Shown here: one piece after another, positions 48,213 to 60,783 of the stretch
Layout of the letters: each line of letters begins with the position of its first letter
Position numbering within the stretch: position 1 is the stretch's first letter
Assembly: GCF_007671725.1 (NCBI RefSeq)
Contig: NZ_VCNM01000002.1
Span: 744,001 to 808,000 of the forward strand
From: Halorubrum depositum
GTDB lineage: Archaea > Halobacteriota > Halobacteria > Halobacteriales > Haloferacaceae
Direction: 5' to 3'
Length of the DNA: 64,000 nt
Translations under genes and position numbers: made by a program
The notes under the pieces: model-generated
Databases searched by the model: none
The model's input: the letters and a program-made list of their open reading frames with translations, nothing else
What the model was told of the DNA's origin: nothing

Positions 48213-48758
48213 TCAGATCTGCTCGGAGTCGACGTACACGTCCAGATCGACGTTTCGGGTCGACCCCTCTAAGTCGCGGACGGCGCGCTGGACGACGCGC
48301 TCGGCCTCGGTCCGGATGAGCGGGACCGCCTTCTTTACCACCCAGTCGAAGGAGACGAGCCGCGGGAGGTCGAGCGCGTCCGGGCTGGCCGACCCCGGAT
48401 CGAACTCGACTTCGAGCGCGACCTCGCAGGCGGGGTCGCCACTCTCGTTTCCGTCGGACCCGGGTTCCGGCTCCGTCGGCGTCACGCGCCAGCAGCCCCC
48501 GGCGTCGATGTCCTTCGTGATCTCCCAGTCGATCCGCTCCGGCGGCTCGACCCCTGTCACCCGCGAGTGGGCCGTGTAGGTGACCTTCCACCACGCGAAC
48601 CGGAGCGCGTAGCGGGTGCCGGGGCCGCCGTCGCCCTCGATCGTCCGCACGTCGTCGAGGTACTTCGAGTAGCGGGCGTAGCCCGGGAAGTCGAGCAGGA
48701 ACTCGTACACCGCCTCGGGGTCGGCGTACACCTCGGTCCTCACGACGAGTTCGTCCAC
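48213..48758 (-). CDS. SRPBCC/polyketide-cyclase-like (START fold) protein
   Basis: 181 aa. Helix-grip fold: MDELVVRTEVYADPEAVYEFLLDFPGYARYSKYLDDV at the start (characteristic of coenzyme Q-binding/polyketide cyclase proteins), a central beta-sheet with PPERIDWEITKDIDAGGCWRV, and a long C-terminal helix with LIRTEAERVVQRAVRDLE. A short acidic loop lies at about 98-110. Probably binds a lipid or other hydrophobic ligand. It is upstream of the tRNA-Ala on the same strand. Confidence 0.88.
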   Translation of the reverse strand: MDELVVRTEVYADPEAVYEFLLDFPGYARYSKYLDDVRTIEGDGGPGTRYALRFAWWKVTYTAHSRVTGVEPPERIDWEITKDIDAGGCWRVTPTEPEPGSDGNESGDPACEVALEVEFDPGSASPDALDLPRLVSFDWVVKKAVPLIRTEAERVVQRAVRDLEGSTRNVDLDVYVDSEQI

Positions 48759-48902
48759 GCACGGTGGTTCGGGCGGCGCGTAATAAGCGGTCCGGCGAGA
48801 CTACGTGTGAGAGGATCGGGTAGGTCGTCGGCGTGTGTTCGACATGGTCGGAGGCGTCTTCGGTATCTCAGTCGGTAACTAATTAACGAATACCACCAGG
48901 CC

Positions 48903-49182
48903 GACGGTGAACGCCTCCAAAGCCCCAGCCGCGACGGCTCGCGTGACTCGCTGCGCTCCTCAGTCGCTCACTTCGTTCGCTCCCTGCGGTGCTTGCGTCG
49001 TCAGGCGTCGCCCTCGCGGCTGCCCCTTTGAGTCCCACCCCAACCGCACCCCAACCGCACCGCAACCGCGCCTCACGCCTCCCCAGCCTCGTCGGTCGTC
49101 CTCCGCGTTGCTCCGGACGACCGACTCCCTCGCACGCGCTCCTCGCGGCCGCCGGCGGCGGCCACTCGGAGGCGCGCGCCAC
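48903..49182 (+). repeat. Modular non-coding hairpin element, copy A
   Basis: About 280 nt. It shares with copy B four conserved blocks in the same order: GACGGTGAACGCCTCC(A/G)AAG followed by CCCCAGCCGCGA (from 48903), CTGCCCCTT(T/C)GAGTCCCACC (49020-49040), CCTCAC(G/A)CCTCCCCAGCCTC followed by GTCG (49071-49094) and GGC(G/A)CGCGCCAC (49171-49182). Between blocks the sequence differs and can fold: TCGGTCGTCC/GGACGACCGA, and GGCCGCC-GGC-GGCGGCC (49147-49163). CCAACCGCAC is repeated three times near 49040-49070. No open frame of halophilic character. It ends right at the M42 peptidase stop. Confidence 0.8.
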
Positions 49183-49191
49183 CGCGGCTGG

Positions 49192-50244
49192 TTATAGGGT
49201 GTAGTCGTGCTCGCCGGTCTCGGAGTCGAGGAACGCCGTCAGCAGGTCGATCGTCGCCGCGACGTCCTCGCCGTCGGCGGTCTCGGTGACGGTATGGAGG
49301 TAGCGCGTCGGGATCGAGATGGCGCCGACCGGCTTCGCCCCGGCCGTGTTCTGGAACCCCGCGGTGTCGGTGCCGCCCGCGGGCAACACCTCATGCTGGT
49401 GGTCGATCCCCTCCGCCTCGGCCACGTCCGTCAGTCGGCCGTGGACCTTCGGGCTGGTGATCACCGAGGAGTCCTTGAGCTTGATCGCGGTCCCCTCGCC
49501 CAGCTCGGTCACGGCGTCTGCCGGCTCGCCGATCTGCGGGACGTCGTTGGCGACGGTGACGTCGAGGGCGACGGCGAGGTCCGGATCGATGTCGACGCCG
49601 AGCGCGCTCGCGCCCCGGAGGCCGACCTCCTCCTGTACGGTCGCCGCGAAGTGAATCGTCACGTCGGGGTCGTCGATCCGGCGAGCGGCCTCCAGCATCG
49701 CGAACACACAGATCCGGTCGTCGAGCGCCTTCCCGGTCACCCGGTCGCCCATCCGCGTCGTCGTCTGGTCGAGGGTGACGAGGTCACCGACGCCGACGAG
49801 CTCGTCGACTTCCCCGCCGTCGCGGCCGAGGTCGATAAACACGTCTTTCACCTCTTCGTCCTTCTCCTTCTGTTCGTCCGTGAGCGTGTGCGGCGGCACG
49901 GAGCCGATGACGCCGGTGAGGTCCTCCTCGCCGTGGACGGTGACGCGCTGGGCGCGGAGCACGCGGGCGTCGAACCCGCCGAGCGGGTCGACCTGCACGA
50001 ACCCCTCGTCGGTGACGTGACGGACCATGAAGCCGATCTCGTCCATGTGGGCCGCGACCGCGACCGAGTAGTCGGCGTCGCCCTCGACGGTCCCGACCAC
50101 GTTCCCCATCGCGTCGGTGCGGACCCGGTCGGCGGTGTCGGCGAGCTCCCGGCGCACGATCTCGCGGACGTCGTCCTCGTAGCCCGGGACGCCACGGGCC
50201 TCGGTCAGCTCTCGCAACAGCTCGAAGTCGAAGTCGAACGACAT
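49192..50244 (-). CDS. M42 family metallopeptidase (TET-like aminopeptidase)
   Basis: 350 aa co-catalytic zinc aminopeptidase, in this family often a large tetrahedral complex that trims peptides. Metal/catalytic signatures: AHMDEIGFMV (about 64-73), GKALDDRICVF, VQEEVGLRGA (catalytic EE), ALDVTVANDVP, and IPTRYLHTVTE with the last His ligand. Start at ATG 50244 (MSFDFDFELLRELTEARG). The much longer open frame upstream overlaps other genes and is not coding. Endoglucanase names sometimes given to this family are misleading. Confidence 0.94.
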   Translation of the reverse strand: MSFDFDFELLRELTEARGVPGYEDDVREIVRRELADTADRVRTDAMGNVVGTVEGDADYSVAVAAHMDEIGFMVRHVTDEGFVQVDPLGGFDARVLRAQRVTVHGEEDLTGVIGSVPPHTLTDEQKEKDEEVKDVFIDLGRDGGEVDELVGVGDLVTLDQTTTRMGDRVTGKALDDRICVFAMLEAARRIDDPDVTIHFAATVQEEVGLRGASALGVDIDPDLAVALDVTVANDVPQIGEPADAVTELGEGTAIKLKDSSVITSPKVHGRLTDVAEAEGIDHQHEVLPAGGTDTAGFQNTAGAKPVGAISIPTRYLHTVTETADGEDVAATIDLLTAFLDSETGEHDYTL

Positions 50245-59090: not shown

Positions 59091-60404
59091 CTACAAGTAC
59101 CCGCCTGCCGCGTCGGCCGCCGTCCGCCCGCTCTTCAGCGCGCCCTGAATCGACGACCACTCCGTGTAGTCGCCGGCGAGCACGACCGGCCCCTCGGGAT
59201 CGTCCGAGTCCGGAAGGTCGGCGTGGACGCCCGGCGGCTGCGCGAACTGCGCGAACCGGATCCGGTGAACGTCGAGGGTCTCCAGCCCCCCGAAGTCGCG
59301 GTCGGGGTACCACGCTTCGAGGGCGTCGCGGACGTCCTCGCGGAGCGCGCCGGCGGGACGGTCGAGGGAGTCCTCGCCGAGGAACGTCGCGGCGAGCAGC
59401 GCGCGGTCGTCGGGCGCGTACTCGGGGGCGACCTCCGACATCGGGACCACGGCGTTCGGCGAGTCGTTCGCGGCGTTGAGCAGGATCCGCCCGCCGGTCT
59501 CGAACGACTCGCCCGCGGGGAGCGCGTACCAGCCGGTGGCGTTCGGGACGCCCTCCGTGGGAATCGACTCGACGCCGGTGAGCCGGCGGGCCTCCGGCGG
59601 GGTCGCCGCGACGACGACCGCGTCGGTCTCGCGCGTCGAGCCGTCGGCGAGCTCGACGGTGGCGCCCTCGGCGTCGGCGCGTCCCGTGCGGAAGGGGATC
59701 CGCCCCTGGCCCGCGGTCCGGACCGACTCCACGTCCGCGCCGGTCTCGATCGTCACGCCCGCCTCGCGGGCGCGGGCGGCGAGCGCCTCGGGGATCGCGG
59801 CCATCCCCGCGGCGGGGACCCCGATCGCGCCGCGGCTCATGGCGCGGAAGGTGTACTCGAACACGTGCTTCGAGGTCGAGAGGCTCCGGTCGAGCGTGAT
59901 CCCGCCGTAGAACGGCTCGACGAAGTTCTCCACGTAGTCGTCGGCGAACCCCCAGTCGTCGAGGTACTCGCGGATCGAGGCGTCCCGGCCCGCGAAGAAG
60001 TCGCCATCGTCGCGCTTCGAGAGGTCGTACCGGAGCGCGAGCGTCCGGAGCTTGTCGGAAAAGGAGATCTCGTCGTTCAACAGCGAGGGGAGCGCACCGC
60101 GGGGGTCGCGGAGGGGGTCAGAGAGCGTCGAGCGCGACCCCGGCCGGCAGATCGTCGCGCCGGGCGCGAAGGGCCGGACGTCGAGGGCGTCGACGTCGAG
60201 TTCGTCCGCGACCGCCGGGTAGCTCGTGAACAGCACTTGGAAGCCGCGGTCGAGCGTGAAGCCGTCTACCGTCTCGGTGCGCACGCGCCCGCCGACCGCG
60301 GGCCGTCGCTCGTACAGCGTCACGTCCGCGCCCGCCTCGGCGAGCCGGCTCGCCGCGACGAGCCCGGCGAGCCCGCCGCCGACGACCGTAACGTCTCCGT
60401 TCAT
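59091..60404 (-). CDS. FAD-dependent amine oxidase/desaturase-like oxidoreductase
   Basis: 437 aa. N-terminal dinucleotide-binding GGGLAGLVAASRLAEAGADV followed by YERRPAVGGRVRTE; the C-terminal AGDYTEWSSIQGALKSGR is the second FAD motif. FVEPFYGGITLDRSLSTSKH and RGAIGVPAAGMAAIPEAL resemble protoporphyrinogen-oxidase/carotenoid-desaturase-like proteins of cyanobacteria and halophiles. Substrate unknown. Start at ATG 60404 (MNGDVTVVGG). TATA-like TTATAAAC at about 60427. Confidence 0.88.
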   Translation of the reverse strand: MNGDVTVVGGGLAGLVAASRLAEAGADVTLYERRPAVGGRVRTETVDGFTLDRGFQVLFTSYPAVADELDVDALDVRPFAPGATICRPGSRSTLSDPLRDPRGALPSLLNDEISFSDKLRTLALRYDLSKRDDGDFFAGRDASIREYLDDWGFADDYVENFVEPFYGGITLDRSLSTSKHVFEYTFRAMSRGAIGVPAAGMAAIPEALAARAREAGVTIETGADVESVRTAGQGRIPFRTGRADAEGATVELADGSTRETDAVVVAATPPEARRLTGVESIPTEGVPNATGWYALPAGESFETGGRILLNAANDSPNAVVPMSEVAPEYAPDDRALLAATFLGEDSLDRPAGALREDVRDALEAWYPDRDFGGLETLDVHRIRFAQFAQPPGVHADLPDSDDPEGPVVLAGDYTEWSSIQGALKSGRTAADAAGGYL

Positions 60405-60783
60405 ACGTCCGTGATCGGGTCGCGAGTTTATAAGCGGTCGCTGACGGAGCGACGGTGAACGCCTCCGAAGCCCCAGCCGCGAGGCGCGAAGCGCCTCTGG
60501 CAGCCGGCGGCACCGCCGCCGGCGACTGCCCCTTCGAGTCCCACCCGACCGCACAGCACCTCACACCTCCCCAGCCTCGTCGCTGGCGCCGAGGCGCCAG
60601 CGACTCCAGCGAGAATCAAAGATTCTCTGGCAGCCGGCGCGGAGCGCCGGCGACCTCGCGCGTGCTCCTCGGCCGCGAGGCGGCCTCGCAGGCACGCGCC
60701 ACAGCACAAATGACGGACTCTCCCGAGCGAGACTGAACGTCCCGAGAGGGAAGCGATTAGTCGCCGCCGCCGCAACGGTGCGT
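60405..60783. other. Divergent intergenic region carrying hairpin element copy B
   Basis: 379 nt between two divergent genes. The left edge holds the promoter of the FAD oxidoreductase (TTTATAAGC on + at 60427-60435); the middle is the repeat element (60451-60702); the right edge has the likely promoter of the threonine-synthase-like gene (AGCGATTAGTC, about 60752-60762). No protein gene is apparent. Confidence 0.6.
60451..60702 (+). repeat. Modular non-coding hairpin element, copy B
   Basis: About 252 nt with the same four blocks as copy A, starting at 60451, 60526, 60559 and 60691. Between them is a run of perfect, tight hairpins: GAGGCGC-GAA-GCGCCTC (60481-60497), GCCGGCGGC-ACC-GCCGCCGGC (60503-60523), TCGCTGGCGC-CGAG-GCGCCAGCGA (60580-60603), GAGAATC-AAA-GATTCTC (60611-60627), GCCGGCGC-GGA-GCGCCGGC (60633-60651) and GGCCGC-GAG-GCGGCC (60671-60685). 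The short stem-loops replace sequence of different content in copy A. No halophile-like open frame. Confidence 0.82.

Follow-up and report, generated by a model that had tools for sequence, protein, structure and literature searches.

Copies A and B, two elements in the 64,000-nucleotide stretch of the Halorubrum depositum genome that was analyzed (the window), belong to a dispersed family with exchangeable stems, which we interpret as structured noncoding RNA elements (probability about 0.6). Transcription, an RNA rather than a single-stranded DNA nature and a cellular role are inferred, and no expression data are at hand. If transcription is left out of the claim, what remains, namely an element family which folds on one strand and exchanges hairpin cassettes, is very likely, and our confidence in it is much higher than that in the RNA reading.

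Copy B occupies positions 60451..60705 of the window and copy A positions 48903..49185; the folded strand of B is the minus strand, and A is likewise placed on the minus strand. The length of the element is about 250-300 nt. The two copies possess conserved blocks in one order and orientation (GACGGTGAACGCCTCCRAAGCCCCAG; CCCCTTYGAGTCCCACCC; CACRCCTCCCCAGCCTCG; right end CTCGC..GCGCCACNGC). On the minus strand, block 1 lies at 60451..60476 in B (CUGGGGCUUCGGAGGCGUUCACCGUC, conserved in the family) and at 48903..48928 in A, block 2 at 60529..60546 (GGGUGGGACUCGAAGGGG) and 49023..49040, and block 3 at 60562..60579 (CGAGGCUGGGGAGGUGUG) and 49074..49091. The long outer stem P1 links block 1 with block 2. 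In B, P1 (60474..60528, minus strand) has its interior replaced by a doublet-hairpin cassette, composed of hairpin 1 (60481..60497, plus-strand loop GAA) and hairpin 2 (60503..60523, plus-strand loop ACC), whereas P1 of A (48926..49022, minus strand) carries the common apical region. P2 of B is a hairpin of 11 bp with the plus-strand loop CGAG (60579..60604, minus strand), and P2 of A (49091..49125, minus strand) is of another cassette type. A second doublet cassette of B, with the plus-strand loops AAA and GGA, is found at 60607..60659; no strand is given for either doublet of B. The outer stem P3 lies at 60658..60699 in B and at 49132..49179 in A, both on the minus strand, and that of A has GA opposite GA on this strand. 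The original prediction, that A and B share ordered blocks and that B contains six hairpins with the loops GAA, ACC, CGAG, AAA, GGA and GAG, held, and all of these were located (stems of 7, 9, 11, 7, 8 and 6 bp, respectively). Four of the hairpins form the two doublet cassettes, which are almost confined to the element family, and the last one is the tip of the longer stem P3. For both copies, the folding on both strands was better than that of dinucleotide shuffles (z -3.7 to -4.2).

The pairing of the stems was analyzed across the family. In 171 copies, the P1 base (CAAAG/CTTTG) was paired in 97-99%, and the stem beyond the GGG/GGG loop was paired in 77-98% per position, out to position 16. 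This GGG/GGG internal loop, which lies on the minus strand between the P1 base and the next stem, was kept in 167 of the 171 copies. At positions 7 and 10-16 of P1 (109 distinct arm pairs), pairing was above that of every column shuffle (0/1000). In other families, the outermost C-G of the P1 base is replaced by G-C, giving GAAAG/CTTTC. In P3, 94.7% of cells were paired. The covariation score for P3 and P2 was 0.330 versus 0.129 for shuffles (0/500), and slid partners gave at most 0.089. With 22 model-aligned matches from outside Halorubrum, the score was 0.349 versus 0.099, although this alignment leans towards structure, the matches having been aligned to the covariance model. The helices thus covary strongly, also beyond Halorubrum.

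Several features distinguish the two strands. Among the P1 mismatches (distinct cells), those readable as G.U on the minus strand numbered 69, versus 17 on the plus strand (44 versus 16 without position 7), and in P3 the corresponding numbers were 37 and 5. No such bias was detected in P2 alone (8 minus versus 6 plus). In 220 distinct small hairpins, GNA triloops were found 69 times on the minus strand versus 30 times on the plus strand, and GNNA tetraloops 18 times versus 4 times. Furthermore, tandem G·A (GA opposite GA on the minus strand) was present in P3 of 83 of the 88 copies. Its plus-strand image, TC/TC, is the commonest 2x2 internal loop of the family, and in distant genomes several P3 stems differ in sequence with GA/GA retained. 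Since the three independent asymmetries (wobble, loop and GA/GA) all favour one strand, the minus strand of the window folds as one molecule. Because a duplex or a cruciform is symmetric, this asymmetry points to a folded single strand, either RNA or DNA. Strand-biased mutation could possibly add to the wobble excess, but would not produce the GA/GA or loop patterns. The apical region was inverted in 3 of 174 copies; thus, a part of the fold tolerates flipping. As a separate observation, in L211, L212 and L229 two P1 half-elements face each other as an inverted pair, a few tens of bases apart.

The unpaired segments are G-rich. On the minus strand of 88 copies, CGAGGCUGGGGAGG, GUGAGG and GGGUGGGACUCAAAGGGGCAG were nearly invariant, and four G-tracts (each of at least 3, on one strand) occurred together in 161 of 174 full copies. 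These figures for the core are upper estimates because the copies were collected with anchors in the same blocks. The covariance-model search recovered the same core motifs in other families. The haloarchaeal cytoplasm is rich in K+, and K+ favours G-quadruplexes. It is therefore plausible, though no more than a possibility, that the core acts as a K+-stabilised G-quadruplex or as a platform for protein or RNA binding; both the folding and the binding are inferred from sequence alone. We also observed a Shine-Dalgarno-like GGAGGYG on the minus strand of two conserved unpaired blocks (window 60466-60476, 60562-60579 and the homologous blocks). Pairing of this motif with the anti-Shine-Dalgarno of 16S rRNA was considered, but its conservation is insufficient for such a claim: in block 3, C predominates at Y and disrupts the match. 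It remains only a lead.

To the conserved core corresponds a high turnover of hairpins. P2 was found as 116 distinct sequences in 147 copies, in recurrent types, and five types of double-hairpin cassette occur in both orientations, almost exclusively inside elements. The possibility that the doublet hairpins are free REPs was ruled out by this confinement. In 47 orthologous locus pairs, the median identity was 0.90 for the flanks and 0.86 for the linker versus 0.53 for P2, and the P2 identity of orthologs (0.53) was that expected of random paralogs (0.54). For example, between L267 and L272 the linker, P3 and right flank are practically identical, whereas the hairpins forming P2 and the P1 apex differ. 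In most related species, locus B has an element at the same site and in the same orientation with other hairpins; L243 and L248 have no element, and L251 has a stripped remnant. In L241, L242 and L255, an apparent small gene stands at this site in place of the element. The element is present in L277 and L278 and absent at the same place in L268, L270 and L276. Deletions run between the CCCCAGCC common to blocks 1 and 3 (L083, L246). The simplest account of the exchange is gene conversion over short tracts, with the conserved blocks as anchors; alternatively, template switching could have taken place between copies.

The genome of A and B contains about 65-75 copies of the element, these two included. 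In the pattern search of this genome, block 2 was found at 64 places and block 3 at 77 (0 and 1, respectively, with the reversed-pattern controls), and blastn of copy B detected 78 pieces. Within the window, block 2 has 2 matches versus 0.00 expected. By pattern or covariance model, the family was present in all 52 Halorubrum genomes sampled. Block 2 (at most 2 mismatches) was found in 49 of them, at up to 186 places; in the three genomes without the pattern and in five with few matches, the covariance model detected 10 to 79 matches each. Pattern counts per genome are thus lower bounds. Beyond the genus, the block-2 pattern was matched in 34 of the 66 genera of the order, the control being near zero. 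The covariance model (P3-P2-linker) was matched in at least 57 of 190 genomes, from 16 of the 66 genera and eight families of the order, seven of them other than the own family; this count is a lower bound because only 16 candidates were scored per genome with stricter filters. In plasmid records, the element was found at 13 places in 10 records, and no element was detected among 50,697 phage records. Contig ends of the own genome (G000, the window belonging to its contig C2) coincide with element copies at G000:C3:33-95 and G000:C2:1386229-1386249 (of 1386341), and it is likely that these copies broke the assembly.

Open reading frames cross A and B, yet a coding origin was rejected: a simple codon-score gene caller set all 60 own copies between genes (0/60 inside). 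The 487-aa reading frame starting inside B corresponds to the gene at 60404, the start having been set too early. For 59 own copies, the neighbouring genes were convergent in 22, co-directional in 17 and 11, and divergent in 9. In 39 of the 59, the left gene has its end facing the element; in 26, there is no right-hand gene that would read into it in the folded direction. B is flanked by divergent genes and A by two minus-strand genes. Since all arrangements occur, no single cis role fits. At locus A (window 48213-50244), in most other Halorubrum genomes the left gene and the element are located away from the M42 peptidase gene; the left gene is often about 15 kb from it and in the opposite orientation. 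Thus, a rearrangement breakpoint lies beside copy A.

In many copies, the element reaches as far as TATA-like boxes on either side. The right-hand box, TTTATAA, is located 6-8 bp past the element end, often with TTTAAATA 33 bp further; this outer box was found in a minority of copies. The left-hand box, TTATAA, precedes AACACC by about 30 bp, and the left unit is tandemly repeated. The occurrence of the right boxes did not depend on how the right-hand gene is oriented (p 0.21 and 0.43). The left box was more frequent next to the end of the left gene than next to its start (p 0.005). These statistics suggest that the boxes are parts of the element. If transcription is assumed, the outer right box would suit a minus-strand start just before P3; the inner one is too close to P3 for such a start. 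The left box would suit a plus-strand start, and this conflict with the minus-strand reading is the main weakness of the RNA reading. In L236 and L272, the unit with the TATA-like box to the left of the element is present in tandem, with up to five units detected. These repeats are nearly identical, which indicates a recent local amplification. In genomes of the f17 family (L214, L215, L217, L222 and L224), CCCACCC is followed by a roughly 27-bp tandem repeat (GTGTCACCGGCCGTTTTCGGTGGATT-like).

In the RNA reading, the minus strand of the window would give the RNA 5'-P3-P2-[CGAGGCUGGGGAGGYGUGAGG]-linker-[GGGUGGGACUCAAAG]-GGG-P1-GGG-[CUUUGGAGGUGUUC]-3'. The stems would serve as a scaffold, for which any pairing sequence suffices, and would thus be freely replaceable. 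The G-rich segments left unpaired, among them the GGG/GGG loop of the P1 base, would form the conserved working core. Hairpin cassettes would move between copies by the gene conversion (or template switching) described above, and insertions, slippage deletions and flips would be rarer additional events. A bolder reading, which we regard as falling a little short of an even chance, is that of a new haloarchaea-wide RNA class with tens to nearly two hundred copies per genome, evolving by whole-helix cassette swaps between loci with the G-rich core kept; its core might form a G-quadruplex favoured by the molar K+ of the cells, which is merely possible.

Three possibilities had been named in the original prediction: a structured RNA, a small mobile element family and a recombination module. 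Structured RNA fits best, and active transposition was not shown. The claim of a family with swapped stems held, the exchange of hairpins between copies being real. The checks proposed with it concerned matches at other loci, compensatory changes and overlap with genes; many loci match, the compensatory changes are strong and no own copy lies in a gene, so that none of them refuted it.

The main rival of the RNA reading is folded single-stranded DNA, which would show the same strand asymmetries. As a specific form of it, the element may be a non-autonomous mobile element (MITE, PATE or REP/REPIN-like), the minus strand of which folds as single-stranded DNA and is acted on by a transposase in trans. 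The high copy number between genes, the presence or absence at orthologous sites (L277 and L278 versus L268, L270 and L276; L243 and L248 at locus B) and the folded-strand asymmetry are compatible with this explanation. GAA mini-hairpins and tandem GA pairs are stable in single-stranded DNA as well. However, no match to the Y1 transposase (PF01797) was detected in the own genome, which possesses only one TnpB (PF07282 search; L291). Across 51 genomes, Y1 number and block-2 copy number were not correlated (rho 0.004, p 0.98; pattern counts being lower bounds), and six more Halorubrum genomes without Y1 have at least 27-99 block-2 places. Two Y1-bearing genomes gave 13 and 29 covariance-model matches. 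Thus, a Y1 transposase is not the present driver here, and a link to IS200/IS605 or RAYT was rejected on the basis of the PF07282 and PF01797 searches. No clear target duplication was observed in the occupied and empty pairs (about 93% identity), the flanks of which are too diverged, and the element ends have only CGGTG/CACCG in common, the left one being variable. In addition, orthologous positions are common to many species, and the element is absent from the phage records and found at only 13 plasmid places. We consider this explanation unlikely.

A DNA-level repeat, such as a BIME-like site for protein binding or recombination in which pairing would matter merely in a cruciform or result incidentally from template switching, is very unlikely. 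The near-perfect palindromes with short loops, the slippage deletions between CCCCAGCC repeats, the flips and the breakpoint beside copy A are in agreement with it. However, the wobble pairs, loops and GA/GA loops are strand-asymmetric, unlike those of a duplex or cruciform, and the GGG/GGG loop is unpaired in 167/171 copies, a mismatch which template switching would repair. Also very unlikely is a 3'-UTR or terminator element that acts in cis on the ends or stability of neighbouring mRNAs: convergent neighbours are commonest (22/59) and the left gene mostly ends towards the element (39/59), but 26/59 copies have no right-hand gene reading in the folded direction, all arrangements occur, and the long invariant unpaired core exceeds the needs of a terminator.

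As an RNA, the element would rank with the most abundant structured RNA families of haloarchaea, with no name in Rfam or the literature searched. Because entire helices are exchanged and the unpaired core is retained, it offers a natural test of which parts of an RNA are important. The exchange of cassettes between dispersed copies can also be clearly read from the sequences. Should the element act as DNA instead, it would be the haloarchaeal equivalent of the BIME/BOX repeats, with a fold specific to one strand.

The supposition that the family has no name held in Rfam and the searchable literature. In the Rfam scan, no family scored up to its gathering cut-off, the best of the weak matches (E = 0.078) falling far short of it, and the block sequences were absent from the open-access literature searched; subscription papers were not covered, and a prior description cannot be excluded. 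The nearest kinds of element are BOX, ERIC and REP, together with the MITE, PATE and SMR groups of Haloquadratum. BOX, ERIC and REP/BIME are intergenic repeats of bacteria (review PMC10969869). Like them, the element is multi-copy, intergenic, palindromic and partly modular, a mosaic with nested pieces; of the REP/BIME features, it meets high copy number, extragenic location and palindromy. Unlike them, it is haloarchaeal, has entire helices replaced around a long, conserved, unpaired G-rich core, and shows strand-specific covariation and tandem GA loops, with no link to a Y1/RAYT transposase found. The repeat groups MITE, PATE and SMR described in Haloquadratum walsbyi (PMC3119063) are linked to transposons and carry either terminal inverted repeats or palindromes close to their ends. 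They are likewise short, transposase-free haloarchaeal repeats, some palindromic and some nested. In contrast, judged by features and not by direct sequence comparison, the ends of our element share only CGGTG/CACCG, its own genome lacks Y1, and hairpins are replaced between orthologs. As in the structured noncoding RNA families of Rfam, covarying helices surround a conserved unpaired core; a copy number of tens to nearly two hundred per genome, combined with the replacement of stems, is, however, unusual for such a family.
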